Source: Actinomycetota bacterium (GTDB taxonomy: Bacteria > Actinomycetota > Geothermincolia > Geothermincolales > RBG-13-55-18). From it: a stretch of DNA of 34,213 nt. A program made the position numbers and the translations under genes. The notes under the pieces were generated by a model that was not told the origin of the DNA, made no database searches, and worked only from the letters and a program-made list of their open reading frames with translations. Shown piece after piece: positions 180 through 32,523 of this stretch (position 1 is the first letter of the stretch; each line of letters begins with the position of its first letter). The stretch lies in contig JASEFK010000014.1 of the NCBI GenBank assembly GCA_030019255.1, positions 35,175 to 69,387 of the forward strand, given 5' to 3'.

Positions 180-1055
180 ATCGCCGCCCGGAACCTGGGG
201 CTCACCCAGCCCGCGGTGAGCTTCCACATCCGCTCCCTGGAGAAGGAATACGGGTGCACCCTGGTGGACCGCTCCCTGGGCCGCTGCCGGCTGACCGAGC
301 CGGGCCGGGTCCTGCTCAGGCATGCCCAGCGCATATTGAAGTTGGAGGAGGAGCTGGCGCGCGAGATGGAGGGGAAGCGAGGCGAGCCCAGTGGAATTCT
401 GAACATCGCCGCCAGCAATATCCCCGGGGAATACATCCTGCCCCGCGTGCTCTCCCGTTACCGCCTCCGTTATTCCCTGGTGGAACCCCGCCTGGAGGTC
501 ACCGATACCCGCGGGGTCCTGGACCTGGTGAGGGCGGGGGAGGTGGACCTGGGCTGCGTGGGTTCCCGGGATGACGAGGAGAGGATGGAGTACGGGAGGC
601 TCTGCCCCGACCGCCTGGTCTTTATCGCCCCCGGCGATCACCCCCTGGCCACCCGAAAACGCATAACGGCGGAGGACCTCGCCGGGGAAACCCTCATCCT
701 CAGGGAGGAGGGGTCGGGGACCCGCTCCCACATGCTGCGTATCCTATCCGAGCTGGGGTTGGACGTCTCCGGCTTGGACTGCCTGGTGCTGGGAAGCACC
801 ATGGCCGTTATCCAGGCCGTGGCCGCCGGGGCTGGAATCTCCGTCTCCTCCCTGTGGGCGGTGGAGCCGTACTCACGACTGGGCAAGGTCCGCGTGCTGT
901 CCTTGTCCGGGGCGGACCTCAGGCGCGACTTCTTCTACGTCACCCTGCGGCGCAGGCCGTCCACGCCGGCGGTGGAGGCCCTGGAGCAGTTGATCGAGGA
1001 GATGCGCCCGGAACTGGAGGATGAACTGGCTTCCCTTTACGGTCCCTTGAACTGA
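123..1055 (+). CDS. LysR-family transcriptional regulator
   Basis: A 310-aa DNA-binding transcription factor of the usual LysR length. Residues 1-60 form the winged helix-turn-helix (FAEVARTGSFSIAARNLG, then LTQPAVSFHIRSLEKEYG). The rest is the two-lobed effector-binding domain. The ATG at 123 is chosen because the protein then begins with the canonical N-terminus and is preceded by GGGAGG at 111-116; an upstream ATG at 90 would add a non-homologous tail. The stretch around residues 100-110 (IAASNIPGEYILP) resembles, from memory, the LysR subgroup annotated as associated with selenium metabolism. That would fit the selenocysteine enzyme in this window but is unproven. The gene is convergent with the Sir2 gene, their 3' ends overlapping by 19 bp. 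Its natural target would lie left of the window or elsewhere. Confidence 0.93.
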   Translation: MNTRSLRVFAEVARTGSFSIAARNLGLTQPAVSFHIRSLEKEYGCTLVDRSLGRCRLTEPGRVLLRHAQRILKLEEELAREMEGKRGEPSGILNIAASNIPGEYILPRVLSRYRLRYSLVEPRLEVTDTRGVLDLVRAGEVDLGCVGSRDDEERMEYGRLCPDRLVFIAPGDHPLATRKRITAEDLAGETLILREEGSGTRSHMLRILSELGLDVSGLDCLVLGSTMAVIQAVAAGAGISVSSLWAVEPYSRLGKVRVLSLSGADLRRDFFYVTLRRRPSTPAVEALEQLIEEMRPELEDELASLYGPLN

Positions 1056-1891
1056 AGCTGCGTCTCCGCGCCGCCCGGCCCGGGTGTGTCCGGGCCTCTC
1101 AGCCAGTGCGCGAAGAAACTTCCTGCCGGCAGGGGTATGTGGAGGTGCGCCTGGGAGGTAAGCGCCGTCCGGGAAGGATCGACGACCACCAGCCTGGCGC
1201 CGCCTTCCAGCGCCACCCGCGGTATCATGGCCGCCGGATAGACCACCGCGGAGGTCCCCAGCACCAGCATGAGCCGGCAGCGGCCCGCCTCTTCCAGGGA
1301 GCGGTTGAACTCCGCCGGCGGAAGTCCCTCTCCGAAGAGGACCACGTCGGGCCGCGTCCGGCCCCCGCAGCTCCCGCAGGGAAGTGTGTATTCCCGCATG
1401 GACTTCAGCAGCCGGCGCCTGTTCCCCGCCTCGCGCAGGGTCTCCAGCACTCCCCACGCCCTCTCCCGCTCCACCTCCGTCCTTCTTCCACACCTCACGC
1501 AGCGCAGGCGGAAGGCGTTGCCGTGGAGCTCCAGTACCTGCCTGCTGCCCGCCGCCTGGTGCAGGCCGTCGATGTTCTGGGTAATGACCGCGCGGAGGCG
1601 GCCTTCCTCCTCCAGGCGGGCCAGGACCCGGTGACAGGGGTTGGGTCGGGCCCGCAGGAGGGTATCCAGGATACCGGAGGCCAGACCGGCCAGCCTGCGG
1701 GGCCGGAAAAGGAAGGCCAGGGCGAGACCGAGAAGGTTGCCGTAAAGGGCAGGTGGATATTCCTTCCAGATCCCCTCATCCCCCCGGAAGGTGGGTATGC
1801 CGCTCTCGGCGGAGACCCCCGCCCCGGTGAAGGCCACCGTGTATGGAGAGGCGTCCAGCAGTCCCCCCAGCGCCGAAAGATATTCCTCCAT
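1037..1891 (-). CDS. cobB: Sir2-family NAD-dependent protein deacylase (sirtuin)
   Basis: Removes acyl groups from protein lysines, using NAD+ and giving O-acyl-ADP-ribose plus nicotinamide. The 284-aa protein has the sirtuin signatures in order: GAGVSAESGIPTFRG (residues 23-37), TQNIDGLHQ (104-112), the catalytic His123 in ELHG, a structural zinc site made by C131/C134 and C172/C175, and GTSAVVYPA for NAD binding. The stretch between the two cysteine pairs is long but within family range. It is the last gene of a minus-strand unit after the P-type ATPase and apbE, starting 21 bp beyond the apbE stop. No clear Shine-Dalgarno precedes the ATG, so translational coupling to apbE is possible. The substrate is unknown; acetyl-CoA synthetase is a common sirtuin target in bacteria, but none is in the window. 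Confidence 0.9.
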   Translation of the reverse strand: MEEYLSALGGLLDASPYTVAFTGAGVSAESGIPTFRGDEGIWKEYPPALYGNLLGLALAFLFRPRRLAGLASGILDTLLRARPNPCHRVLARLEEEGRLRAVITQNIDGLHQAAGSRQVLELHGNAFRLRCVRCGRRTEVERERAWGVLETLREAGNRRRLLKSMREYTLPCGSCGGRTRPDVVLFGEGLPPAEFNRSLEEAGRCRLMLVLGTSAVVYPAAMIPRVALEGGARLVVVDPSRTALTSQAHLHIPLPAGSFFAHWLRGPDTPGPGGAETQLQFKGP

Positions 1892-1912
1892 GACATCAGG
1901 GAGAGAAAAACC

Positions 1913-3079
1913 TCAGGGGCCCGTGGCCTCCTTCACTTCCTCCAGGTACCCCTCCATGCCCTTCGTGGAGTGAACCCTCCCGGAGGAATCCACAAGGAGG
2001 CAGTCCAGGCCGTGCGACTCCGCCCAGCTCAAACCCTCCGGGTAACCCATAACGAAGACGGCGGTGGACAGGGCATCGGAGCGGGCTCCTTCCTCCCCAC
2101 CCACCACGGTCACCGAGATCGCCCCCCTCGCCGGGTAACCGGTGCGCGGGTCGAGTATATGGTGATAGCGAATCCCCTCGTACTCGAAAAAGCGCTGGTA
2201 ATCACCGGAGGTGCTCACGTAAGTTCCCCCGGAAAGAAGGAGGGTAGCCAGGTAATCCTCCCCCCGCGGATCGAGGATGCCGATCCGCCACAGCGGCCCG
2301 CCGGCGCTTCCCGGCTTCTCTCCCAGGGTAAGGTCGGTGCTTATCATGCTTATATATCCCGACTGGATGCCCCGGGAGCGAAGTACCTCCGCCGCCCGGT
2401 CCAGCGCGTATCCCTTGGCCAGCCCTCCCACGTCCAGGGACATGCCCGGCTTAAGGAAACGGACGGTGCGGCCCGCCTCGTCCAGCTCGAGCAGGTTCGT
2501 GCCCACCAGGCTCAAGGCGTCAGCTATTTCCTCCTCTCCGGGAGGCGGGTCGCCCCTCGCTCCCCTGCCCAGGACATCCCAGAGGTCCACCAGGGGACCC
2601 ACGGTGATATCGAAGGCACCTCCGCATTCCCGGTAAATCTCCACTCCGGTGGTTATGACCCTCCAGAGGTCCTCGGAAACGACCACCGGTCCCCGCGCCG
2701 CCTCCCGGTTAAGCCTGTACAGTTCGCTCTCCGGGTCGTAACGGTCGAACACGCCCTGGAGGCGCTGGAGCTCCCGGAAGGCCTCGTCCACCGCTCCCTC
2801 CACCCGGGCCTGGTCCTTCCCGTAGGCGGTTATGGTCACGTAATCGTCGAGGACGAACATGGTGCGCTGGTAGGGCTCCCGCGAATAGCCGGGATTGAAG
2901 AGCCTCACGCCGAGGAAGGCTGCTCCCACCAGGACCAGAAAGACCGCGGTCACTATAAGGGTGTCGCGGCGGTTCTTGCGCCCCAGGCTCTCCCGGTCGA
3001 GATCCTCTTCTCCTTCCATGGTCGGTAGTATATCAGAGCCGCGGGCCGCAAGGACCGGGCGAATCCTTCTTCGGGGCAC
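1913..3079 (-). CDS. apbE: FAD:protein FMN transferase (ApbE), membrane-anchored
   Basis: Transfers FMN from FAD onto a threonine of target proteins such as RnfG, RnfD, NqrB and NqrC, on the outer face of the membrane. The family signatures are present: SLDVGGLAKGYALDRA, the HHILDPRTGYPA loop and DALSTAVFVMG with the Mg-binding Asp. A single hydrophobic helix at about residues 40-58 anchors the protein with its catalytic domain outside. There is no lipobox cysteine, unlike many ApbE lipoproteins. The start is uncertain: a GTG at 3079 lies 7 bp after the ATPase stop behind GGGGAC, while the ATG at 3019 has no visible ribosome-binding site. It sits downstream of rnfD, whose product has a candidate FMN-threonine, so RnfD is the likely substrate (inference). 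Confidence 0.92.
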   Translation of the reverse strand: MPRRRIRPVLAARGSDILPTMEGEEDLDRESLGRKNRRDTLIVTAVFLVLVGAAFLGVRLFNPGYSREPYQRTMFVLDDYVTITAYGKDQARVEGAVDEAFRELQRLQGVFDRYDPESELYRLNREAARGPVVVSEDLWRVITTGVEIYRECGGAFDITVGPLVDLWDVLGRGARGDPPPGEEEIADALSLVGTNLLELDEAGRTVRFLKPGMSLDVGGLAKGYALDRAAEVLRSRGIQSGYISMISTDLTLGEKPGSAGGPLWRIGILDPRGEDYLATLLLSGGTYVSTSGDYQRFFEYEGIRYHHILDPRTGYPARGAISVTVVGGEEGARSDALSTAVFVMGYPEGLSWAESHGLDCLLVDSSGRVHSTKGMEGYLEEVKEATGP

Positions 3080-3086
3080 CGTCCCC

Positions 3087-5510
3087 TCAGCCGTCGGAAA
3101 CAGCCATGAGACCGCCCGGGGCCCTCCGTTCCACGTACCTCACCGCCAGCTCCAGGAGCAGCACGTGGACGGCGGCGATGCCCAAGGCCTGGAGGAGGAC
3201 GGGAATGGAGGGCATGAAGAGCTGGAAGAAGGCCCGGAACCAGGGCAGGAGCATAATGCCGGCGAAGGCACCCCCCATGATGGCGGTGAGCCCGCCCTTC
3301 CAGGTTAAGAGGGGCCGGGAGAGGTGCGCCAGCACCGACAGCCCCACGCAGGTGAGGACGATGACCGCCGTGGTCCTTACCTCACCGTCCGGAATCCGGT
3401 TTGAATGGGCCATGGCCACGGCCATGAAGGTTGCGGAGGTGGCGATGACTCCCGCGGGGAAGGAGAAGAGCATCACCCGCCGCAGGAGGCCAGGCCGGTA
3501 GCGCCGCCGGCTGGGGGTGAAGGAGAGGATGAAAGCGGGTATGCCGATGGTCAGGGAACCCACCAAGGTGATATGCCTTGGGAGCAGGGGGAAGGGCCAC
3601 CGGGCCAGGGAAATCACCAGGGCCAGCAGGGCCACGTACACGGTCTTGGTGAGGAAGAGATTGGCCACCCTCTCCATGTTGGCCATTACCCTGCGGCCCT
3701 CGGCCACTACCCCGGGAAGGGTGGAGAACCTCCCGTCCAGGAGCACCAGCTGGGCTACCGCCTTGGTTGAGGGAGCTCCCGATCCCATGGCTATGCCCAG
3801 GTCCGCCTCCTTCAAGGCCAGGGTGTCGTTCACCCCATCCCCGGTCATGGCCACTACGTGGCCCCGGCCCTGCAGGGCCCGGACCATATCCCGCTTCTGT
3901 TCCGGCACCACCCTGCCGAAGACCGCCCTCTCCTCCAGGACCGCGGCCATCTCCTCGCCGCCGGGGGGGAGGTTCCTCGCGTCCACGGGCTCCTCCGCCT
4001 CCGGAACTCCTACCCGCGAGGCTATGCTGGCTACCGTGCGCGGGTTGTCCCCGGAGATCACTTTTATCCTAACCCCCTGCTCACGGAAATAGGCCAGGGT
4101 CTGCGGCGCGTCCGGGCGCACCTTCTCCATGAGGGCGAGGATAGCCGCGGGGCGAAGGCGGGCGGGAAGGGACGCGCCCTCGCTCAGCTGCCCGTCCGCC
4201 TGCGCCAGCATCAGCACCCTCAGGCCCCTATTCGCCAGTTCCTCCACCACCGCGGAAATCTCCCGCTCGCCGCCCCCGCAACCGGGAGCGGCCGCGGCAA
4301 GGAGGATCTCCGGCGCGCCCAGCACCCAGGTCCCCCGCTCCCGGAACTCCACCGCGCTCCACTTGCGCGCCGAGGAGAAGGGGACCACGCCGGCCACTTC
4401 CCATCCCCCCGCCTTGGGGGAAGCCTCGGCGAGGGCGGAAAGGGTGGCGTTGTGGTCCGGCAAAGCCCGGACCAACGCCCCCAGCGCCTCCCGCGCCTCC
4501 AACCGATCGTCGAGGAAGCGCACCTCCTGCAGGTCCAGGGTGCCCTCAGTCAAGGTCCCCGTCTTGTCCAGGCAGACCACGTCCACCCTGGCCAGCCCTT
4601 CCACGGCGGGAAGCTCCTGGACCAGCACGTTGCGCCGGGCGAGCATCACGGCGCTTGCGGCGAAGACGATGCTGGTGAGCAGTATCAGCCCCTCCGGCAC
4701 CATGCCCACCAGTCCGGCCACGGAAGCGATGACCGCCTCCCGCAGGGAGAAGTGGGTCAGCAACTGGCCGGAGACGAAGACCAGCGCGACGGGGATCATT
4801 ATCCAGGTGATGTAACGCAGGATGGTGTCCGCCGCTTTCCTGAGGTCCGAGGACACCAGCGTGAAGCGCCTGGCCTGGAAGGCCAGTTTCTGGGCGTAGA
4901 CCTCTCCCCCCACCGCCGTGGCCCGGAACTTTCCCCTTCCCCCGGACACGAAACTCCCCGACCAAACGCCGTCACCCGGCCCCTTGAGAACCGGCACCGA
5001 CTCGCCCGTGAGGAGGGATTCGTCCACCTCCAGCCCCTGGGAAATCACCACCGACCCGTCCACCAGAATCTGGTCTCCGGGACCGACCTCGACCAGGTCG
5101 TCGAGGACGATCTCCTCCCTGGGGATATCCCTGACCTCCCCCTCCCTCACCACCCGGGCGCGGGGAGCGGTCAGGATGTAGAGCCGGTCCAGGGTCCTCT
5201 TGGCCCGCCACTCCTGGACGATGCCGATGAGGGTGTTGAAGACCAGCACCAGTCCGAAGAGGGCGTCGCGGGGGGAATCGAGCACCAGGACGATTACCGC
5301 CAGGGCGCCCAGGAGGGCGTTGAAGCGGTTGAAAACATTGGCCCGGATGATGTGTGCCAGGGACCGACTGCTCTTCTCCCTCACCCGGTTGGTGAGTCCC
5401 CTCTCCACCCTCTCCCGGACCTGGTCCTCCCGGAGGCCAGTCCGGGGATAATCCGGTCCGAGCTCTTCCAGGTCGGAAGGAGGAGCGGTCAAGGTATACA
5501 TGTCACTCAT
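3087..5510 (-). CDS. Cation-transporting P-type ATPase, CtpE-like
   Basis: ATP-driven cation pump of 807 aa. Visible motifs: TGES in the actuator domain (residues 168-171), PEGL in transmembrane helix 4 (272-275), DKTGTLT with phosphorylated Asp315, and TGDGVND in the hinge. About ten hydrophobic segments are spread as expected (pairs near 60-95, 232-290 and six at the C-terminus). There is no N-terminal heavy-metal CxxC domain and no CPC in helix 4, which argues against copper, zinc or cadmium. The PEGL motif and layout resemble mycobacterial CtpE, reported as a calcium transporter, so Ca2+ is the best guess. Start: GGAGG followed by ATG at 5510. The apbE gene begins 7 bp downstream, so the two are probably co-transcribed. 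A link to electron transfer is not evident. Confidence 0.88.
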   Translation of the reverse strand: MSDMYTLTAPPSDLEELGPDYPRTGLREDQVRERVERGLTNRVREKSSRSLAHIIRANVFNRFNALLGALAVIVLVLDSPRDALFGLVLVFNTLIGIVQEWRAKRTLDRLYILTAPRARVVREGEVRDIPREEIVLDDLVEVGPGDQILVDGSVVISQGLEVDESLLTGESVPVLKGPGDGVWSGSFVSGGRGKFRATAVGGEVYAQKLAFQARRFTLVSSDLRKAADTILRYITWIMIPVALVFVSGQLLTHFSLREAVIASVAGLVGMVPEGLILLTSIVFAASAVMLARRNVLVQELPAVEGLARVDVVCLDKTGTLTEGTLDLQEVRFLDDRLEAREALGALVRALPDHNATLSALAEASPKAGGWEVAGVVPFSSARKWSAVEFRERGTWVLGAPEILLAAAAPGCGGGEREISAVVEELANRGLRVLMLAQADGQLSEGASLPARLRPAAILALMEKVRPDAPQTLAYFREQGVRIKVISGDNPRTVASIASRVGVPEAEEPVDARNLPPGGEEMAAVLEERAVFGRVVPEQKRDMVRALQGRGHVVAMTGDGVNDTLALKEADLGIAMGSGAPSTKAVAQLVLLDGRFSTLPGVVAEGRRVMANMERVANLFLTKTVYVALLALVISLARWPFPLLPRHITLVGSLTIGIPAFILSFTPSRRRYRPGLLRRVMLFSFPAGVIATSATFMAVAMAHSNRIPDGEVRTTAVIVLTCVGLSVLAHLSRPLLTWKGGLTAIMGGAFAGIMLLPWFRAFFQLFMPSIPVLLQALGIAAVHVLLLELAVRYVERRAPGGLMAVSDG

Positions 5511-5875
5511 CTTATTTCCTCCCCCCGGGCCCCGGAAGCCGCCCAGCGCTCACCGCGTGGGTAACGGCCTCCTTGTCTCCCTTCCCTTCCATCACTTTCC
5601 GGGTCCTTCGGACTTCCGGTCGCGGATAATCGGCTGATTGATATAGGTCATGATAACTCAAATCCCCATCCATCGGCCCTCGGACCATCGAAAACCGCGC
5701 CCTGTCCCGTTTTCGATATCCTGGTAATTGATACCATCGGGGGAACCGTTTGCCCGTCAGGCAAAGACTCGAGCTTCCCGGAAAAAAGATGGTTGGGAGG
5801 CGTAAAAGCCTTTTTCCGCCTCGAGGTCCGTCCTGAAAGGAATCCCCGCGGAAAAGGCACCCGGATCATGAGAAA
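5511..5875 (-). other. Intergenic region between rnfD terminator and P-type ATPase
   Basis: About 365 bp with no convincing gene; a 73-aa minus-strand ORF (5648-5869) has no recognisable features. A 6-bp hairpin TTTGCC-cgtca-GGCAAA lies at 5749-5765. The region should hold the promoter and leader of the ATPase-apbE-sir2 unit, but I find no well-spaced -35/-10 pair. Confidence 0.5.
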
Positions 5876-5898
5876 GGGGCCGGGCGGAACCCGGCCCC
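5876..5898 (-). terminator. Rho-independent terminator after rnfD
   Basis: A perfect 9-bp GC stem (GGGGCCGGG / CCCGGCCCC) with a 5-nt loop, followed on the minus strand by TTTCT. It lies about 30 bp past the rnfD stop and closes the fdnG-fdnH-rnfC-rnfD transcript, separating it from the ATPase unit. Confidence 0.8.
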
Positions 5899-5930
5899 CA
5901 GCGGCGTTTGGATCATGGGCCCCGCGTTCT

Positions 5931-6875
5931 TCAGGCGGCGACCACCTCTCCGAACTTCCTGGGCTTGAACGCCCTGTCCAGCAGGGGGACGAAGGCGTTG
6001 CCGATGAGGATGGAATAGGCCACCGCCCCGGAGGGCCCCCCGTAGAGGCGGATGAGCACGATGCAGATCCCGATGATCAGGCCGAACACCGCCTGTCCCC
6101 ACCGGTACATGGGACTGGTCACCCAGTCGGTGGCCATGAAGAAGGCTCCCAGCATCACTCCACCCGCCAGTATCTGGTAGAGCCCGTCGGAGCCCAGGAT
6201 GTAGGCTAGGATGAACACGGTGGCCAGGATGGTCACCGGGATCACCCAGTTGATGACCTTGCGGTAGATTAGGTAGGCGCCTCCCAGAAGGATCCAAAAG
6301 CAGCCCACCTCGGAGATGGCCCCGCCGTAGTTGGCGAAGAGAAGGGCCGCGTAGGAGGGCGCGCCCTCCAGCCCGTGCTTGATGTAGGCCACCGGGGTGG
6401 CCGCCTGCACCCCGTCGAAGCCCCCGGGCAGGAATCCCAGATGCCCGGTCCAGCTGGCCAGGAACCCGGAACCGATGAGGATGAACACGAACCCGAAGAG
6501 GGCGGGGTTGAAGATGTTCCGGCCCAGGCCTCCCATGAGCTCCTTGACGATAACCACGGCCACGAAGGAGGCGATGATCATGTTCAGCCAGTGTATCTTG
6601 GGCGGGAGAAGCAGGGCCAGCAGCAGGCCGGTCACCGCGGCGCTCCCGTCCGAAAGGGTGACCTTCTTTTTCCTCACCTTGCGGGCCACCAGCTCGAAGA
6701 ACATGGCCGACCCCACGCATACCGCGATGTTGAACAGGGCGTTGTAGGTGAAAGCCACCAGCGCGGCGATGGTTATGGGCGCCAGGGCTATGAGCACGTC
6801 GCGCATGGCGACCGCCGTCTGTTCCTTGCTCCTCAGGTGCGGGGGCGGGGTGATGACCAGGTTATCCAATGCCAT
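5931..6875 (-). CDS. rnfD: RnfD/NqrB-family membrane flavoprotein
   Basis: Integral membrane subunit of Rnf/Nqr-type electron-transfer complexes. It carries a covalent FMN on its outer side and passes electrons across the membrane. The 314-aa protein has about nine to ten hydrophobic helices. The loop FDGVQAATPVAY contains Thr160 at the position of the FMN-threonine in the family motif (usually SGAT, here QAAT). GLGRNIFNPALFGFVF (residues 117-131) and MLGAFFMATDWVTSPM are further family blocks. It starts 15 bp after the rnfC stop with a GGAGGCGAT site, so it is the last gene of the fdnGH-rnfCD operon. The other Rnf subunits (A, B, E, G) are absent from the window. RnfD without RnfG suggests a reduced complex in which RnfD alone relays electrons between the FdnH clusters and RnfC (inference). 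Confidence 0.93.
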   Translation of the reverse strand: MALDNLVITPPPHLRSKEQTAVAMRDVLIALAPITIAALVAFTYNALFNIAVCVGSAMFFELVARKVRKKKVTLSDGSAAVTGLLLALLLPPKIHWLNMIIASFVAVVIVKELMGGLGRNIFNPALFGFVFILIGSGFLASWTGHLGFLPGGFDGVQAATPVAYIKHGLEGAPSYAALLFANYGGAISEVGCFWILLGGAYLIYRKVINWVIPVTILATVFILAYILGSDGLYQILAGGVMLGAFFMATDWVTSPMYRWGQAVFGLIIGICIVLIRLYGGPSGAVAYSILIGNAFVPLLDRAFKPRKFGEVVAA

Positions 6876-6890
6876 TTCCCATCGCCTCCT

Positions 6891-8210
6891 CTACTTCTTC
6901 TTCCGGGCCGCGATCTCGGCCTTGGCCTTGCGCACGTACTGCACGTGGGGGATGTAGGCGGGGCACTGGTAGGAGCAGCACCCGCACTCGAAGCAGTCCA
7001 GGGCTCCCCACATCTCCGCCCGGTCCCACTGCCCCCGCTTCGTCGACTGGACGATGAAGTTGGGGGAGAGGAACATGGGGCAGACCTCCACGCACTTGCC
7101 GCAGCGGACGCACTCCGACTCCTCTCCCAGGTCCACCATCTCGGAGGTGAGGACCACCACCCCCGAGGTTCCCTTGACCACCGGGGTCTTGGCGTCCGGC
7201 TGGGTCCAACCGGTCATGGGGCCGCCCATGATCAGCTTCACCGGGTTGCCCACCAGGCCACCGCAGGCCTCCAAGAGGACGGATACGGGGGTGCCCACTC
7301 GGGCCAGGAGGTTGGCGGGCTCCCGCACCCCGGGGCCGGTGACGGTGACCACCCGCTCGTAGAGGGGCTTGCCCCAGGCCGCCGCCTCGTAGAGGGCCAC
7401 CGCCGTGCCCACGTTCTGCACCAGGCAGCCCACCTCGGAGGGGAGCTTGCCCGGGGGGACCTTCCTTCCCGTGAGGGCGAAGATGAGCATCTTCTCCGCC
7501 CCCTCCGGGTACTTGACCTCCAGCACCTCCACTTCCACGTCGCGGTAGGAGGAGGCGCGGGAGCGCAGGGCGTCCACGGCGTCCATCTTGTTGGCCTCCA
7601 CCCCGATGATCACCCGTGAGGCCCCCACCGCCGTCTTGAGCAGGCGGGCGCCGGCGATGAGGTCGTCGGTGCGCTCCAGCAGGAGGCGGTGGTCGCAGGT
7701 GAGGAAGGGCTCGCACTCGCAGGCGTTGATGATCACCGTGTCGATGGGCTTGTCGGAGGGAGGGGTGATCTTCACGTGGGTGGGGAAAGCGGCCCCGCCC
7801 ATGCCCACCAGCCCGGCCTCCTTGGCTATCTCCCGGATCTCCTCCGCGGTGAGGGACTCCAAGTCCTTGCCGGGCTTCTTCTGGAACTCGGGCTGCGTGG
7901 CGTCGGGGGTGATGACCACACTCCTCACCTTGGCCCCAGTGAAGTTGGGGACCTCGGTTATGGCCTTGACCACGCCGGATACCGAGGCGTGCACCGGGGC
8001 GGAGACGAAGGCCTGGGCTTCGCCTATCTTCTGGCCTACCTCCACCCGGTCTCCCTCCTTGACCAAGGGCTCGCAGGGGGCCCCCACGTGCTGCTGTAGG
8101 TGGATGACCACCTCGGAGGGGATGGGGGCCGGCTTGATGGCCTTGCCCGAGGCCAGCTCCTTGTTGTAGGGGGGATGGATACCTCCCTGGAAGGTCTTGA
8201 GCTCCGCCAT
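6891..8210 (-). CDS. rnfC: RnfC-like NADH/ferredoxin-type electron-transfer subunit
   Basis: Peripheral cytoplasmic subunit of Rnf complexes, binding FMN and NAD(H) and carrying two [4Fe-4S] clusters. Visible parts in order: the RnfC N-terminal barrel-sandwich region (about residues 30-85), the Nqo1-like nucleotide/FMN-binding stretch GLVGMGGAAFPTHVK (133-147), a SLBB-like region, then CVRCGKCVEVCP (about 367-378) and CFECGCCSYQCP (about 406-417). At about 439 aa it matches short RnfC proteins without the repeat-rich C-terminal tail. The ATG at 8210 follows the fdnH stop by one base (TGA-C-ATG) with GGGGGTGAG in front; a GTG at 8219 is an alternative but sits too close to the G-rich site. The tight coupling to fdnH implies a fixed stoichiometry with the formate dehydrogenase. 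Confidence 0.93.
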   Translation of the reverse strand: MAELKTFQGGIHPPYNKELASGKAIKPAPIPSEVVIHLQQHVGAPCEPLVKEGDRVEVGQKIGEAQAFVSAPVHASVSGVVKAITEVPNFTGAKVRSVVITPDATQPEFQKKPGKDLESLTAEEIREIAKEAGLVGMGGAAFPTHVKITPPSDKPIDTVIINACECEPFLTCDHRLLLERTDDLIAGARLLKTAVGASRVIIGVEANKMDAVDALRSRASSYRDVEVEVLEVKYPEGAEKMLIFALTGRKVPPGKLPSEVGCLVQNVGTAVALYEAAAWGKPLYERVVTVTGPGVREPANLLARVGTPVSVLLEACGGLVGNPVKLIMGGPMTGWTQPDAKTPVVKGTSGVVVLTSEMVDLGEESECVRCGKCVEVCPMFLSPNFIVQSTKRGQWDRAEMWGALDCFECGCCSYQCPAYIPHVQYVRKAKAEIAARKKK

Positions 8211-8211
8211 G

Positions 8212-9129
8212 TCACTCACCCCCTCCCTGTGCCTGGCGCTCCAATCCTTCGTTGCGCTTGTTGATCACGTAACCGACTCCCGCCGCGGCCACCAGGCCTA
8301 CCAGGGCCAGGCCGCCCCAGGGAGCGCCCGGTTTCACCAGGGTCTCCCAGACGGTCACGCCGGCTGGTACCGTGGGCTTCTCCGGCAGGCCGTACTTATC
8401 GGGGGTATCCTCGAGCACGTAGATGTAATGGAGACCGCCCAGCTCGTTCTCCCCGTAGACCTGGGCCTTGTCCTTGCCCCGGCCCTTCAGATATTCCACC
8501 CGCTTCCTGGCCAGCTCCAGCATCTCTTCGCGGGTGCCGAAGGAGAGAGCCCCGGAGGTGCAGGTCTGCACGCAGGCGGGGCGGTTGCGGGTGGGGTAAG
8601 GGTCCTTGGCGTTCTTCATGTCCGGTGAGGCTTGCTCAGGCTCAGGAAAAGCCTCCGGATCCTGGCTTATACGGTCCAGGCACATGACGCACCGGAAGAT
8701 CCCCTTTTCCTTCTCGTCGTAGCGGCAGGCCTGGAAGGGGCAAGTGGCCACGCAGTAGTTGCAGCCGATGCACTGCTTGGGGTCGGTCTTTACCACGTAG
8801 GCCTCGGTGTCCCCATCGGTCACCTTATGCTTCTTGGTGGCCCCGCTGGGGCACACCTTGACGCAGGTGGCGTCGGTGCAGTGCATGCACTGGTACTTGG
8901 TGAAGTACCAGTAGATCTCGTCGTCGCTCTTCGGACGCTCTTCGGGCTCGTTGAAGAGGATGCGCATCCAGCACTGCGCGGTGAGCTGGCGGGGATTCTC
9001 GTAGGTGCCCTCGTTGTGGGTCTCCGTGTACCCCCGCTGGTTCCAGTTCTTGCAGGCTACCTGGCAGGCCCGGCATCCCGTGCACTTGCTGGCGTCGAAG
9101 AGGATGGCCTTGTCCGTCGGGTTAGCCAT
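8212..9129 (-). CDS. fdnH: Formate dehydrogenase iron-sulfur (beta) subunit, membrane-anchored
   Basis: Electron-relay subunit of an FdnG-type formate dehydrogenase. The 305-aa protein has the FdnH pattern of four [4Fe-4S] clusters: C16/C19/C22/C26, C81/C84/C89/C93, C120/C123/C126/C130, and a set around C135, C147/C150 and C186/C190. One hydrophobic helix at residues 271-289 ends in positive residues, as in E. coli FdnH, where this helix anchors the subunit and meets the cytochrome b. No signal peptide is visible; in this family the subunit travels with the Tat-exported alpha subunit. It starts one base after the fdnG stop (TAA-A-ATG) with AAGGAAGGTG upstream. No cytochrome b gene follows; rnfC does. 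The electron acceptor is therefore likely the Rnf-like pair rather than menaquinone through FdnI. Confidence 0.93.
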   Translation of the reverse strand: MANPTDKAILFDASKCTGCRACQVACKNWNQRGYTETHNEGTYENPRQLTAQCWMRILFNEPEERPKSDDEIYWYFTKYQCMHCTDATCVKVCPSGATKKHKVTDGDTEAYVVKTDPKQCIGCNYCVATCPFQACRYDEKEKGIFRCVMCLDRISQDPEAFPEPEQASPDMKNAKDPYPTRNRPACVQTCTSGALSFGTREEMLELARKRVEYLKGRGKDKAQVYGENELGGLHYIYVLEDTPDKYGLPEKPTVPAGVTVWETLVKPGAPWGGLALVGLVAAAGVGYVINKRNEGLERQAQGGGE

Positions 9130-9130
9130 T

Positions 9131-12100
9131 TTACTTCACCTTCCTTAGGTTCACCAGGAAAGCCTTGGATTCGGGGATGGTGGTGTTGGCGTCTCCCACG
9201 TGCGGCGTCAGCTGGTTGGCGGCGTAGTTCTTCTTGGAGAACCCGTTGCGCTCCGGGCCGCCCGGGAAGAGGCCAACGAACCCATAATGCCAGGTTAATC
9301 CCACTATGTGGATCTTCCTGGTTGTGCCGTTGTCCCCGATCTCCAGGGGCTTCAGGCGCACGGTGACCACGGCAACGCCCTGCACCTTGCCGCGCTTGCT
9401 CTCCACCTCAACCAGGTCGCCGCTCTTGATCCCCAGCTCGTCGGCCAGCTCCTTGGAGATCTCGACGAAGTTCTCCGGCATGGCCTCGCCCAGCCAGGAA
9501 TTGTTGCGGGTCATCTGCCCCGCCTGCCAGTGCTCGGTCACCCGGTAGGTGGTGCACACGTAGGGGTAGCGCTCGTCCCCCACCTCGGCGAAGCCCCACT
9601 TCTCGGGCTCGTTCTTGGCCGAGGGCCACTCGAGCACCGCCGCCGGGTTGTTCTGTACCGAGGAGAGCATGTTCCTGACCGGGCTTTCCCGCGGCTCGTA
9701 GTGCTCGGGGAAGGGGCCCTCCGCCATGGAGTTGGAGAAGAGGCGCGCCACCAAGGCACCCGGCTCCCGGTTCATGAAGAAGGAGGTGGCACCGGAACGG
9801 GTCCTCATGGTGGCCTTCCCCCTGAGCTCGGCCGGGAAGGCCGGGTCGGAGCTAGGCTGGGTATAGAAGTCGGGCACGTCGTTCTTCATCCCCAGTGTCT
9901 CGTCGTCCTTGAAGGTGAAGAGGGCCTTGTCCGGGGCGAAGGGCTTGCCTGACCAGTCCACGGAGTTGCGGTTGTAGAGGATGCGACGGTTCAGAGGCCA
10001 GACCCAGGCCCAGTTGGGATTGACTCCCAGATCGATCATCTTGGCGTCGGATGGCGGGTTCTCGGTGTAGATGGTCTGGCCGTCTTTCCCCAGCCAGTAC
10101 ACCGGTGTCTTCTGGAAGTGCCACTGCGCCTTGTTGAAGGGGATGCCGTTCCACTCCATGACCTGCTTGTCCCGGGGGATCTTGGTCTTTCCGTCCTCCC
10201 CCTTGGGGAGCTGTCCCTCAATGCCCAGGATCTTGGCCGCGTTCTCTATATCCGCGTCGCTAGCCCACTGCCCGCAGTAGATCCACGTGCCGCTGACGGT
10301 GGAGCCATCGTCCTTGAGGTTGGCGAAGCTGAAGACCGGCTTCTTGAAGGCCGCCTCCCAGGAGAATTCCCCTTCCGGCCAGGTGAACCCGCTGATCTCC
10401 AGCTGCACCTGGTCCAGGTTGGGATCGCCGTGCTCGTCTTCCTCGTAAGCCCAGAAGAGCTCGGTGATGGCCTCCTTGTTCTTGCCGCCCTCCGCCTCGT
10501 AGAGGTCCTTCAAGGCCTTCATGAGCTGGTGCATTATCCAGGCGTCGGACTTGGCGTCGCCGGGGGGTTCCACCGCCTTCCAGCGGTACTGGGCCAGGCG
10601 ACCGGAGTTGGTCACCACCCCACTCTTCTCCACCGAGGAAGCGGCGGGCAGCACCCATACTTCGGTCTTGATGTCCTTGGGCTCCACGCCGGGGCGGCGC
10701 CAGAAGTTCATGGATTCCGTCTCCCACAGGTCCACGGCAACGAACCAGTCCAGCTTGTCCATGGCCGCGGCCTCCAGGTTGGAGCAGGCCCCGCCCACCA
10801 CTGGGTTCTGACCCCAGGCGATGAGGCCCTTGATAACCCCGGCGTACATGTCCTCGAAGAGGGCGATGTGGGTGTAGTTCTTGCCCTTCTTGACCTTGGG
10901 ATGCAGGTCATAGGCCTTGTCCAGCCCGTTCTTCTTGGCGTAGGGGCCGTAGTAAGCCATGAGGTAGCTCTTGACGAAACGGGGCGTCCAAGTCCAGATA
11001 CCCACCTTGGGAGTCAATTTTTCCAGGTACTTGTCCAAGGTGGGATGATCGGTGGAGTTGGGAACCGAGATGTAGCCGGGAAGTATGTGGCTTAGCAGCC
11101 CGAAGTCCGTCGATCCCTGTACGTTGGACTCGCCGCGAAGGGCGTTGATTCCCCCTCCGGGCATCCCGGTGTTCCCCAGCAGCGCCTGCAGGATGGCGAA
11201 GGCGCGTATCTTCTCCGTCCCGAAGGTGAACTGGGTGAGCCCCATGGCGTACATGAGGTTGCCGGTTTTCTCCCGCTTGTGGGTAATACCCACATAGGTC
11301 TCCGCGATCTCCTTGAACTTGTCCGGGTCCATGCCGCAGACCTTGGCCACCACGCTGTCCGGGCCCTCATAGGTGTAGCGCGAGACGTGCTTGGCCAGCT
11401 TGGCGAAGACCGTAGGCTGCATCTCGTCGAACCTTCCCGCCTTGATGAGCTCCCATTCCACGGGGATGTAGTTCCCGTTGCTGTCCTTGGGTCCGATGGG
11501 CACTCCCCTTCCGGGGAAGGCAGGGTCCTCGGCAATGGGGATGAGCTGCACGCGCTTGGGCTCCCCGGTAGCGGGATCGGTTTGGTAGGTCCACTTATTG
11601 ACCTTGGGGTCGGGATTGTACTTCTTCTTCTCCTTGTCGTAGCCGCTGAAGTATCCGTCCAGCTCCCAGGGCCCCTTGAAGTCCGGATCAACCAGGATGG
11701 GGGCGTTGGTGTAGTTCTGGACGTACTCCCAGTTGATGTAGTTCTTATCGATGGCGTACTTGATGAGAGCGTTGAAGAAGGCGATATCGGTGCCCGGCCG
11801 GATGAAGGAGAAGAGATCGGCACGGGCGGCGGAGCGGGTGAACCTGGGATCCACCACGATGATCTTGGCGCCCCTCTCCTCCCTGGCTTTCTCCAGCCAC
11901 TTCCAGGAGACGGGATGGTTCTCGCTGGGGTTGGCGCCGCAGATTATGAAGACGTCCGCGTTCTTGAGGTCCACGTAGTGATTGGTCATGGCCCCCCGGC
12001 CGTACGTGCCGCCGAGACCGGCGACTGTGGCCGAGTGTCATATGCGGGCCTGGTGTTCTATATACACCAGGCCGAGGGAACGCGCGAACTTGGCGGCCAG

Positions 12101-12610
12101 ATAGCACTCCTCATTGTCCAGGGCCGCCCCACCCAGCTGGGCGATGCCCTCGCAGCGATTGGCGGTCACCTTCTGTCCGTCCACCTCGTCGGTCTCCACG
12201 AAGGTGGCGTCGCGAGTGTCCTTGATGAGACGGGCGATGGCCGGGATGGCCTCCTCCCAGGTCCTCTCCTCCCAGTCCGTGGCCCCCGGCGCGCGGTAGA
12301 GGACCTTCTTCAAACGCCTCTCGTTGTTGGCCACCTGGATGATGGACTGTCCCTTGGAGCAGAGGCTGCCCCGGTTGATGGGGCTGTCGGGGAGCCCCTC
12401 GATATTCACCACCTTCCCGTCCTGCACGCTGACGATGGCGGAGCATCCCACGGAGCAGTACGGGCATACCGTGGTGCTTTCCCTTGCCTCGCGGATGCGA
12501 AGCTCATCGCCGGCGGCGTAGGCAGGGGTGGTGAAACCGAGTTGGGCGAGGGCCGTGACGCCTATCCCGGCGCCCGACAGCTTGAGGAAACTTCTGCGAG
12601 AAAGTTCCAT
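9131..12610 (-). CDS. fdnG: Formate dehydrogenase catalytic subunit, selenocysteine-containing, Tat-exported
   Basis: Molybdenum- or tungsten-pterin enzyme oxidising formate to CO2 (or the reverse). The gene contains an in-frame UGA at 12038-12040, codon 191. The context reads HQARI-Sec-HSATVAG, matching the family motif around the catalytic selenocysteine (Sec196 in E. coli FdnG). Both flanks are in one frame and homologous to FdnG, so this is one 1159-residue protein, not two genes. N-terminal features: a Tat signal (SRRSFLK, then a hydrophobic stretch ending near PAYA), then CPYCSVGC plus a later Cys for a [4Fe-4S] cluster. Molybdopterin-binding blocks include GANPSENHPVSW and the C-terminal NNSWLGEAMPENFVEI. 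The ATG at 12610 follows GGGGGGAG; a further-upstream ATG at 12688 would bury the Tat motif. Automated annotation is likely to split or truncate it at the UGA. Confidence 0.96.
12005..12040 (-). promoter_or_regulatory. Bacterial SECIS element for UGA-selenocysteine decoding
   Basis: Directly after the UGA the mRNA can fold into a hairpin with a 6-bp apical stem (UCGCCG / CGGCGG, one U-G pair) and a GUCU loop. The segment GGUCU begins 18 nt after the UGA, which as I recall is the same sequence at the same distance as in E. coli fdhF. SelB binds such loops to deliver Sec-tRNA. The selA, selB, selC and selD genes are not in the window. Confidence 0.85.
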
Positions 12611-13048: not shown

Positions 13049-14044
13049 TCAGGAAAAAACCGTCCGGCACCCCCGTTGGTACCCCTTCTCCTCCGCCGCC
13101 AAGTCCAGCCGGGCGGTGGCCAGGTCCTCGAGGGGCAGCACCAGTTCCTCGTCCTTACCCGTGTATCCCGAGGTTATCTTTATATACTTCCGGCAGTTGT
13201 CGCACAGGTAAGCCCGGTGGTGGGGATCGTCCTCCAGATATATATACCGCAGCTTCTCCTGGTCGGTGGTCATGCAGAAGGGACACATCATCCGGGGGAA
13301 CCCCCAGCGTGCCCCGCAACGGGAGCACTCCAGCACCCGCAGTCCGTCCTCGGAGCGCAGGAAACCCATCAGGGGGAGGTCCCCGCACACGGGACAGGTC
13401 CCCCTGGCCACCTGGTCCAGGTCCGCTTGCCGGGCCAGGGAGGCGGCCGCCTTCCAGTAGAAGGGAGCTAGGGTGAGGTGCAGGAGGAGGTAAATCAGTT
13501 CCGGTTCCGCCGCCTTCCCCTCCGCCAGGGAGTTGAACCTCTCCTCGTCACCGGCCAGGCAGGCCTCGACCAGCTCGCGGGCCAGCTCCTCTGTGAGCTC
13601 TTCCTCGAGGAAAGTCCTCAGGTCCGCCGGCTCCTTATCGCCCTTCTTTATCAGCGCCTCCCCTATCTCCCTGATCATCCCCACCAGAAGGGAGAGGTCT
13701 ATCTCCATCTCCTCTGGTTCCAAGAGCAGCCTCCCTTCCTCCAGGCGGAAGGACACCTCCGCGCCCTCGATGTGGGGCAGGCGATCCGGGATGCGCCGAG
13801 AAAGACGGCGCTGCACGGAGAAGACCTCGCGGTACAGGTCCGTTATCCCCTTCAGCCTGGGATTCTTTTCCACATACTCCCTGGCCTTCCGGTTTACCAG
13901 GCTCTTGTTTATGCGGCGCTGCTTGAGGTTGAAATCGCCTATGGTAACCCACCTCCTCGATAACCGGCGGACGTGCGTCCACCCGTAACCCGGGCCTTCA
14001 ACCCGAGCCCCTCGAATAGCGCGGCCCTTCCCGTTTCGGTCCAT
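13049..14044 (-). CDS. fdhE: Formate dehydrogenase accessory protein FdhE
   Basis: Cytoplasmic maturation factor needed for activity of Tat-exported, FdnG-type formate dehydrogenases; E. coli FdhE is a rubredoxin-like iron protein binding the catalytic subunits. The C-terminal half has the expected metal-binding pairs CPVCG, CSRCG, CPFC and CDNC. Without the first 34 residues it would be 297 aa, close to the usual 300-310. The start is odd. A strong AGGAGG (13952-13957) is followed, 9 nt later, in frame, only by an ATA codon (13942-13940); no ATG, GTG or TTG is near it. The first in-frame ATG is at 14044, with a weak site, adding an unusual N-terminus. Its presence with fdnG and tatAC makes a complete export and maturation set. 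Confidence 0.92.
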   Translation of the reverse strand: MDRNGKGRAIRGARVEGPGYGWTHVRRLSRRWVTIGDFNLKQRRINKSLVNRKAREYVEKNPRLKGITDLYREVFSVQRRLSRRIPDRLPHIEGAEVSFRLEEGRLLLEPEEMEIDLSLLVGMIREIGEALIKKGDKEPADLRTFLEEELTEELARELVEACLAGDEERFNSLAEGKAAEPELIYLLLHLTLAPFYWKAAASLARQADLDQVARGTCPVCGDLPLMGFLRSEDGLRVLECSRCGARWGFPRMMCPFCMTTDQEKLRYIYLEDDPHHRAYLCDNCRKYIKITSGYTGKDEELVLPLEDLATARLDLAAEEKGYQRGCRTVFS

Positions 14045-14596: not shown

Positions 14597-15355
14597 CTAC
14601 TCGCCCAATTCCTCCTCCAGAGCCTTCCTTCGCCTATCTGCGGCCCGCTTGCCCAGGGCGGCGAAGAATATGCTCCCCTCGTAGAGGAGGAACATGGGGG
14701 CGGCCACCAGCATCATGGTTATGGGGTTCCAGTCCGGGGTGATGAGGGCGGCAAAGGCCAGGATGGCGATAACGGCGTACCTCCATCCCCGGTGAAGCCT
14801 GCGGGGAGTCACGATGCCCAGGCGCACCACCAGCCACACCAGCAGGGGCGTCTCGAAGGTGAGGCCCAGGGCCAGCATGAGCAGGGCCACCAGGCCCACA
14901 TAGTCCCCGGCCATGAGCACAGGGCTAATCCTCCCCTGGGCCTGGCCCACCAGCCAGTTCAGGCCCACGGGCAGGATGTAGAAGTAGCAGAAGGCGGCGC
15001 CGGCCAGGAAAAAGAGGATGATGAAGAAGAGGGAACCGTACATCAGGCGCTTCTCCCGCTTGCGCAGGGCGGGGGCCACGTAGGCCAGGACCTCGTAGAG
15101 GATGACCGGGAGGGCGATGACCAGGGCCGCGTACATGGCGATCTTGAAGCGCACCATGAACGGCTCGAGGACCGTCTGGTAGTAAAGGTTGAGGGGGATG
15201 TCGGCCTTGGTAGCCGGCCTCTTCAAGAAATCGAGGATCTCCCAGGAGAACACATATCCCACGCAGACCGCCACCAGGAGGGAGATGAAGATGACGATTA
15301 TGCGCCTGCGCAGTTCCTCCAGGTGCTCAATGAAGGACATTCTCAGCTCGGCCAC
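14597..15355 (-). CDS. tatC: Sec-independent protein translocase TatC
   Basis: Multispanning core of the twin-arginine translocase, which recognises the RR signal and exports folded proteins. The roughly 250-aa protein has the TatC N-terminal signature MSFIEHLEELRRR, the conserved Pro/Glu of the helix 2-3 region (FEPF-like LEPFMVRFK), and six hydrophobic helices. The family ends of the helices are visible, for example LALGLTFETPLLVW and ALITPDWNP. The GTG at 15355 is preferred because GGGGAGG lies 5 nt before it; GTG at 15361 and ATG at 15340 are alternatives. It follows tatA on the same strand with a gap of about 300 bp. FdnG is an obvious Tat substrate within the same neighbourhood. Confidence 0.95.
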   Translation of the reverse strand: MAELRMSFIEHLEELRRRIIVIFISLLVAVCVGYVFSWEILDFLKRPATKADIPLNLYYQTVLEPFMVRFKIAMYAALVIALPVILYEVLAYVAPALRKREKRLMYGSLFFIILFFLAGAAFCYFYILPVGLNWLVGQAQGRISPVLMAGDYVGLVALLMLALGLTFETPLLVWLVVRLGIVTPRRLHRGWRYAVIAILAFAALITPDWNPITMMLVAAPMFLLYEGSIFFAALGKRAADRRRKALEEELGE

Positions 15356-15653
15356 AGGCACCTCCCCGAACGATTGGAAAACCGAAAAGTGGGGTGGTAT
15401 TCATTCAGGTGATGATGCCGGGAACGGATCACTCTATATCTTCAGGTCATGCCGCCGACCGTTCACCCCTATCGACATATCCACGTCATCCGAACGAGCC
15501 CGGCAAACGATTCCCGCAACACATCAAGCCGTATACGCCGCCCCGCATCATCATCCCCCATTAAAGCGGAGGGAGACCCGCCCTCCTATATGCGCACGCG
15601 CAAGGCAACGGCTTTTCCGCAGGATCATCATCCCGGGGTCGCCCGGCGGGAGT

Positions 15654-15884
15654 TCAATCCTCGTCGTCCGAGGACTTCTTCTTGGCCCCTTCCTCCTCAT
15701 CCGTTCCCTCGATGCCTTCCTGGATGGCCTTGGAGACCTCTTGGCTCGAGGCCCGGAACTCGCGGATGGCCTTCCCCACGGAACGCCCTATCTTGGGAAG
15801 CTGAGCCGGCCCGAAGATGATGAGGGCGATGAGGAGTATCACTCCCAGCTCGGGGAGGCCGAAGCTCTGAAACAGGGCGAGCAT
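15654..15884 (-). CDS. tatA: Sec-independent protein translocase TatA
   Basis: Pore-forming or membrane-thinning component of the Tat system. The 76-aa protein has the classic layout: a short N-terminal transmembrane helix (about residues 10-25), the FGP hinge (IIFGPAQLPKIGRSVGKA), an amphipathic helix, and an acidic and lysine-rich tail. The ATG at 15884 has AAGGAGG at a good distance; an upstream ATG at 15914 would add ten charged residues not seen in the family. It is expressed from a strong predicted promoter about 130 bp upstream. With tatC it forms a minimal TatAC system of the type found in many Gram-positive lineages; no tatB is seen. Confidence 0.94.
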   Translation of the reverse strand: MLALFQSFGLPELGVILLIALIIFGPAQLPKIGRSVGKAIREFRASSQEVSKAIQEGIEGTDEEEGAKKKSSDDED

Positions 15885-32493: not shown

Positions 32494-32523
32494 ATTATAT
32501 GACCGTTTTTGCACTTCATTCAA
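32494..32523 (-). promoter_or_regulatory. Promoter of the S8-propeller gene
   Basis: Minus-strand TTGAAT (32518-32523) and consensus TATAAT (32494-32499) with an 18-bp spacer. The -35 overlaps the last codons of the radical SAM gene. Predicted leader about 30 nt. Confidence 0.75.

Follow-up and report, generated by a model that had tools for sequence, protein, structure and literature searches.

A formate dehydrogenase operon with RnfC and RnfD as a candidate transmembrane formate:NAD+ oxidoreductase

A 34,213-nucleotide stretch of contig JASEFK010000014.1 (positions 35,175 to 69,387, forward strand; assembly GCA_030019255.1), here called the window, carries the actinomycetote operon fdnG-fdnH-rnfC-rnfD. 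This operon probably encodes a four-subunit transmembrane formate:NAD+ oxidoreductase, in which RnfD and RnfC stand in place of the cytochrome b subunit FdnI. An earlier sequence-only reading had proposed a four-subunit transmembrane formate:NAD(H) enzyme, and this core claim is supported by the lack of an FdnI-type cytochrome, by the genome G016 described below, by parallel modules built around other enzymes, by an RnfD specific to its partner, and by the linkage to apbE. What we infer in this proposal is that a complex is formed, which route the electrons take, that NAD accepts them, in which direction the transfer runs and that no ions are pumped.

Organization of the operon and features of its subunits

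The four genes are tightly packed on the minus strand between positions 12610 and 5931, and their position agrees exactly with the span 5931-12610 claimed for them previously. None of fdnI, rnfA, rnfB, rnfE and rnfG is present in the cluster, as had also been claimed, and no FMN_bind gene was detected among the scanned cluster genes. Spacing amounts to 1 nt between fdnG and fdnH and 15 nt between rnfC and rnfD, while fdnH and rnfC overlap by 8 nt if rnfC starts at GTG 8219. The ratio of nonsynonymous to synonymous substitution rates (Ka/Ks) of 0.04-0.28 across fdnG, fdnH, rnfC and rnfD indicates purifying selection on all four genes.

The first gene, fdnG (9131..12610, minus strand), encodes the selenocysteine-containing catalytic subunit of formate dehydrogenase-N, exported by the twin-arginine translocation (Tat) pathway (TIGR01553, 1037 bits, cut-off 814). 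Its start codon, ATG 12610, is followed by the Tat motif SRRSFLK in agreement with a TAT_signal match, and the closest PDB sequences are the periplasmic formate dehydrogenases (FDHs) 1h0h_A, 8cm4_A and 1kqf_A. To keep the frame open, the TGA at 12040-12038 (12038..12040, minus strand) must be translated as selenocysteine (Sec, U). All 12 relatives in which its motif, QARI-U-HSATVA or a close variant, could be located have kept this TGA, and in the alignment PDB chain 1h0h_A has an X at the same position. An Rfam search of the window found no RNA element, so the Sec codon is assigned without a match to a selenocysteine insertion sequence (SECIS) family. A frameshifted or split fdnG was considered and rejected, the Sec TGA being conserved in relatives. 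Two more FDH-like genes with an in-frame TGA (G000:C9:33269-35299 and 100583-102622) score below the Fdn-type profile cut-off and are probably cytoplasmic FDHs.

The iron-sulfur subunit with four [4Fe-4S] clusters is encoded by fdnH (8212..9129, minus strand). Its match to TIGR01582 (203 bits) is under the cut-off of 335; among solved structures E. coli FdnH (1kqf_B, E = 2.9e-53) is nearest to it, and 16/16 cluster cysteines are invariant in 10 aligned sequences. A C-terminal hydrophobic anchor helix is placed approximately at residues ~272-290 (8260..8316, minus strand) by sequence and alignment, and a predicted model of low confidence (predicted local distance difference test, pLDDT, 43) has a helix at 272-301. 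The Tat signal of FdnG and the anchor helix of FdnH proposed from sequence are both borne out.

RnfC, the cytoplasmic head with NAD(H)/flavin mononucleotide (FMN) sites and two [4Fe-4S] clusters, is encoded at 6891..8219 (minus strand; TIGR01945, 536 bits, cut-off 246). It aligns end to end with RnfC of Clostridium tetanomorphum (7zc6_C, E = 1.9e-136) and of Acetobacterium woodii (9eri_C), with 8/8 cluster cysteines, both ferredoxin-type motifs, the 51K FMN domain (NuoF-like, for NADH and FMN) and the RnfC_N domain all present. The last gene, rnfD (5931..6875, minus strand), specifies the membrane flavin wire (TIGR01946, 260 bits, cut-off 207; PF03116, 311 bits). Over its full length RnfD can be aligned with 7zc6_D (E = 5.6e-65), and its AlphaFold2 (AF2) model (predicted TM-score, pTM, 0.76) gives a TM-score of 0.82 against both 9eri_D and 7zc6_D. 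In a family-model search, the rnfC and rnfD models outscored all others for these two proteins. The codon of RnfD Thr160 (6396..6398, minus strand) marks the residue predicted to bind FMN covalently: its motif DGVQAATPVA corresponds to DGVTTATPLA in 7zc6_D, and A159-T160-P161 is invariant in 10 RnfD sequences of the pair type, i.e. the type found in such RnfC/RnfD pairs. In the RnfD of the complete rnf operon of the same genome (L004:8775-9821), the position of the usual flavinylation Thr is occupied by Ser (GGASPLA), while pair-type RnfD keep the Thr.

Since in Nqr the reduction of quinone takes place at NqrB, which is homologous to RnfD, and NqrA has no cofactors (PMC12174285), RnfD might be an NqrB-like quinone-reducing anchor that passes formate electrons to menaquinone, with a structural RnfC comparable to NqrA. 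The host genome has one gene of the UbiA prenyltransferase family, although its product is below the cut-off of every model. The quinone pocket of NqrB is built by N-terminal helices that RnfD lacks (PMC12174285), and the RnfD of the operon has no NqrB-type extension, its residue 8 being aligned with residue 9 of 7zc6_D. Furthermore, the RnfC of the operon, unlike the cofactor-free NqrA, retains the eight iron-sulfur cysteines and the FMN/NADH domain. We therefore consider a quinone-reducing role very unlikely.

Conservation, parallel modules and partner specificity

The host genome (2.93 Mb, 98.8% complete) belongs to an actinomycetote of the Ca. Solincola type, its nearest named relatives being Candidatus Solincola (Ca. 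Geothermincolaceae). The fdn operon was found in 19/31 genomes searched in the class, host included. In each of the 18 relatives fdnG-fdnH-rnfC are contiguous, and rnfD of the fdn type follows rnfC directly. This order is kept across the class at ~45-93% protein identity and with near-zero gaps, and together with the Ka/Ks values its recurrence in relatives down to ~45% identity argues that the adjacency is not due to chance. Adjacency of fdnH, rnfC and rnfD in other genomes and absence of fdnI had been suggested as a check of the proposal; the first was seen in these 19 genomes, and for the second, cytochrome b561 (PF01292, FdnI/HyaC) and NrfD (PF03916) gave no match anywhere in the host genome. 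This leaves both FdnGH and the hydrogenase described below with no conventional membrane partner, and the idea that FdnGH is served by an FdnI or NrfD encoded elsewhere was accordingly rejected.

Three RnfC/RnfD pairs exist in the host genome, belonging to the fdn operon, to a complete rnfCDGEAB operon on another contig (L004), and to a hydrogenase module (L005:4668-10414; G000:C4). The last is organized as one operon, HydS(Tat)-HydL-HydM-RnfC-RnfD, and encodes a Tat-exported [NiFe] type enzyme with a C-terminal hydrophobic helix in the small subunit HydS; HydM (7431-7925 in L005) is a four-helix protein without a family. This hydrogenase-RnfCD module is conserved in 14 named loci of relatives. 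Loci L156:4023-5989 and L157:6794-8677 hold a solitary RnfD of the hydrogenase type, 54-59% identical to RnfD of the hydrogenase module. Ahead of it lies a proline-rich protein with hydrophobic segments at its ends, and neither an RnfC nor an enzyme was recognised alongside.

A third module, detected in three genomes, consists of an FdnH-like protein, RnfC, RnfD, a PhsA-like Tat molybdoenzyme and a TorD-type chaperone. It is complete in L117 (G026; 764-6890), truncated where the contig ends in L163/L063 (G009), and distributed over two contigs in G012 (L119, L162). In G012, an ArsD-like gene and a gene for an SBF-family transporter, which may carry arsenite, are located a few kb from the module. 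A second, diverged FDH-RnfCD module occurs in G014 (L118:4589-11821; G014:C177) with fdhE downstream, and the frame of its catalytic subunit has no TGA, probably because of Cys in place of Sec.

A profile search for pair-type RnfD (353 bits or more) through 396 genomes of the phylum disclosed it in 31/31 genomes of the class and in 0/365 of the others, where the best score was 339 bits. Closer inspection of five of these 365 genomes showed a complete rnf operon in four of them; in the remaining one (L154), rnfC, rnfD and rnfG are accompanied by a partial match to rnfA. The contig scan used two short peptide patterns, which distant orphan pairs in other phyla may escape. In the named loci, an RnfC close to that of the operon always lies within a dehydrogenase or hydrogenase module, and distant RnfC (52% or less) adjoin further rnf genes wherever neighbours are readable. 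Loci L081, L085 and L089 (Planctomycetota/Brocadiae) show rnfC-rnfD-rnfG with no rnfE/A/B recognised in the available flanks, possibly another partial Rnf.

INDEPENDENCE from canonical RNF is seen in G016, the same sequence as L043, which belongs to Candidatus Geothermincola primus and is 99% complete. Its sole RnfD locus reads tatC-fdhE-fdnG-fdnH-rnfC-rnfD-apbE, with apbE directly behind rnfD, and neither rnfA/rnfE nor rnfG was found in the whole genome. The RnfCD pair of this genome thus cannot depend on the rest of Rnf.

In maximum-likelihood trees of RnfC and of RnfD, on which partner changes were counted, a fully supported branch separates pair-type from canonical sequences for both proteins. 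Clades of RnfD match the partner exactly, with one change each for formate dehydrogenase, hydrogenase and molybdoenzyme; clades of RnfC are not sorted by partner, and the fdn group requires at least 4 changes. Comparison of the fdn and hyd copies within the host genome gives 77-78% identity for RnfC and 44% for RnfD. This is the pattern that a partner-specific membrane subunit, RnfD, and an interchangeable cytoplasmic NAD(H) head, RnfC, would show. At the DNA level the two rnfC copies are ~80% identical with a few stretches of 90-95%, because of which very recent gene conversion was rejected and the exchange of rnfC looks old or partial. That the pair might be what is left of a decayed full rnf operon was also rejected, given the complete operon elsewhere, the deep clade of its own and the Ka/Ks values.

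These data bear on two further explanations. RnfC and RnfD of the operon could be isoforms that join canonical RnfA/B/E/G, in which case FDH would be no more than co-transcribed with them, its link being a metabolic one through NADH or ferredoxin. This would suit the complete rnfCDGEAB of the host and the rnfA/E found in most relatives that carry the module. Against it, G016 has the operon and a single RnfD without rnfA/E/G, RnfD clades follow the periplasmic enzyme, the same pair accompanies three different enzymes, and no membrane partner would exist for either FdnGH or the hydrogenase; isoforms are therefore an unlikely explanation. Alternatively, the adjacency could be incidental or regulatory and reflect no physical complex, as genes needed in the same physiological state are commonly gathered in one operon. 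The class-wide order in 19 genomes, the attachment of the pair to three enzyme types and the partner-specific RnfD make this extremely improbable.

Some observations weigh against a self-contained formate:NAD+ enzyme. A complete rnf operon coexists in most genomes with the module, and mixed complexes may be formed there; HydM of the hydrogenase module has no counterpart in the FDH module, and docking may differ between the two; the UbiA-family protein leaves room for quinones. The sequence-only reading had named a complete rnf operon together with a separate fdnI as evidence that would speak against it. The rnf operon is present, whereas fdnI is absent genome-wide, and the former does not refute the proposal because G016 has the module without rnfA/E/G.

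Proposed mechanism and relation to known systems

Structures of Rnf and Nqr show two passages of the electrons through the membrane, the first outward via RnfB and RnfA/E to RnfG and the second inward (PMC12174285). The inward path leads from FMN of RnfG to FMN of RnfD on the outer side, then to riboflavin, to iron-sulfur clusters of RnfC, to FMN and to NAD+ (PMC12174285). RnfCD corresponds exactly to the inward-returning half of this loop, and in the proposed formate:NAD+ oxidoreductase FdnGH would replace the outward half (RnfB, RnfA/E, RnfG), so that a periplasmic dehydrogenase with its iron-sulfur exit at the membrane would feed RnfD in the stead of RnfG. FdnG would oxidise formate on the outer face, and the four [4Fe-4S] clusters of FdnH would bring electrons to the membrane surface. 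RnfD would transfer them inward through covalent FMN at Thr160 and riboflavin, and RnfC would reduce NAD+ in the cytoplasm by means of two [4Fe-4S] clusters and FMN. As the outward half of Rnf gives way to a periplasmic dehydrogenase, none of the subunits is expected to pump ions.

Oxidation of formate outside combined with reduction of NAD+ inside would constitute a redox loop of ~2 charges per formate without an ion-pumping subunit: the transfer would carry two charges to the inside, and H+ would be set free on the outer face and consumed on the inner one. The midpoint potential of formate is ~-430 mV. Those of H2 and NAD+ are -414 mV and -320 mV, respectively (PMC12174285). The driving force from formate or H2 to NAD+ would be ~0.1 V per electron, and a drop of this size coupled with charge movement would, under standard conditions, hold the enzyme in balance at roughly 0.1 V of membrane potential and make it reversible. 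In the forward direction, oxidation of formate or H2 would charge the membrane; in reverse, NADH and the potential would drive production of formate or H2 outside.

Ferredoxin was the other cytoplasmic partner suggested by the sequence-only reading, and the same four-subunit complex could be imagined to use it instead of NAD(H): the whole Rnf exchanges electrons with ferredoxin, and a low-potential anaerobe would be expected to benefit. Solved Rnf structures place ferredoxin on the RnfB side and the NAD+ site in RnfC (PMC12174285). RnfB is missing from the module, RnfC has the NuoF-like NADH/FMN domain, and judged by midpoint potentials formate would hardly be able to reduce ferredoxin while charging the membrane. 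The ferredoxin alternative is thus unsupported, and we assign it very little probability.

Besides FDH, the RnfCD arm would be reused by the [NiFe] hydrogenase in the host genome and by the Tat molybdoenzyme in relatives; if the latter is a reductase, the third module would work in the opposite sense, from NADH to a periplasmic acceptor. We lean, with somewhat less assurance than for the formate enzyme, towards RnfCD as a general plug-in transmembrane NAD(H) arm that replaces cytochrome b or NrfD of FDH, [NiFe] hydrogenase and PhsA-like molybdoenzyme throughout the class.

E. coli FdnGHI (1KQF) resembles the proposed complex in the periplasmic Sec-containing FdnG, the anchored four-cluster FdnH, Tat export, maturation by FdhE and the logic of a transmembrane redox loop; it differs in that the operon studied here has RnfD and RnfC instead of the dihaem cytochrome b FdnI with its quinone acceptor site. 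With RnfABCDGE (C. tetanomorphum, 7ZC6; A. woodii, 9ERI) it shares the fold and cofactor motifs of RnfC and RnfD, but a periplasmic dehydrogenase takes the place of RnfB, RnfA/E (with the intramembrane cluster) and RnfG. Two-subunit NQR/RNF-like systems, reported mainly from Actinobacteria and the candidate phyla radiation, also have a path in one direction through an NqrB/RnfD-type membrane domain and linkage to apbE (PMC8238504; PMC11334425). In them, an RnfD-like domain that has lost the flavinylation Thr is fused to an NqrF-like PF00175 flavoreductase, which provides the NAD site, and an FMN-binding protein receives the electrons (PMC8238504; PMC11334425). In contrast, RnfD of the fdn operon matches PF03116 alone, with no fused PF00175, and has kept the Thr, RnfC has a gene of its own, and an iron-sulfur dehydrogenase acts as partner. 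Hydrogenase, formate and RnfC are not mentioned in the main texts of these two papers.

RnfC2 of the methylenetetrahydrofolate reductase MetVF-RnfC2 (PMC9430772) is likewise an NADH module used outside Rnf, but RnfC acts there alone, with no RnfD among the described subunits. The periplasmic FDHs of Thermacetogenium phaeum and Syntrophomonas wolfei (PMC6895022) are similar in the outward Sec-containing FDH, in FdhE and in the acetogenic or syntrophic metabolism, but have a gamma subunit and are linked to menaquinone. For related actinomycetotes, only a complete Rnf complex is described in the passages of PMC7325909 consulted. We found no report of an FDH or hydrogenase wired to RnfCD in open-licence literature, although subscription journals may hold one. 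Within the literature searched, fdnGH-rnfCD is a combination of known parts that has not been described.

Respiratory formate dehydrogenases and uptake hydrogenases are textbook examples of quinone-linked redox-loop enzymes. If RnfCD replaces their cytochrome b arm, formate or H2 oxidised outside would deliver electrons directly to NAD+ inside, and charge would be separated with neither quinone nor ion pump. The complex would then be a minimal reversible converter among membrane voltage, NADH and extracellular formate or H2, and RnfCD as a general arm would set apart a class of quinone-free redox-loop enzymes, the periplasmic substrate:NAD+ oxidoreductases. The complex would offer a direct test of whether the halves of the Rnf/Nqr loop are separable modules, as the out-and-back path suggests. 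It would also represent a new and simple way of storing energy as membrane voltage in little-known uncultured anaerobic bacteria, and would inform on acetogenic and syntrophic life at the energy limit.

Neighbouring genes in the window

Upstream of fdnG, and on the minus strand like the operon, are located fdhE, tatC and a tatA-like gene. The FDH maturation protein FdhE (13049..14044, minus strand) matches PF24859/PF24860 and is under the cut-off for TIGR01562; the gene is upstream of fdnG in relatives too. The Tat translocase gene tatC (14597..15361, minus strand; PF00902, 208 bits) has also kept its upstream position in relatives. The tatA-like gene (15656..15884, minus strand), with the open frame MLALFQSFGLPELGVILLIALIIFGPAQLPKIGRSVG..., was assigned by eye.

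Downstream, rnfD is followed by a hairpin, a P-type ATPase gene and apbE. The hairpin (5875..5899, minus strand) is a probable terminator with a fold of -25.5 kcal/mol and TTTCT behind it; the earlier description as a strong terminator is half right, because the hairpin is there but the U tract is short. The FMN transferase gene apbE (1913..3079, minus strand; PF02424, 273 bits) is the sole one found in the genome. It is also found downstream of the operon in L037, L038, L039, L041, L060 and L062.

The P-type ATPase gene between rnfD and apbE (window 3087-5510) has the proton-efflux type IIIA as its best model, below the cut-off; it is kept in Solincola-type loci and absent from this position in L043. 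Other genes in the window encode a Sir2-family protein (1037-1891), a large subtilase with FG-GAP repeats (28424-32458) and a B12-binding radical SAM protein (32520-33800).

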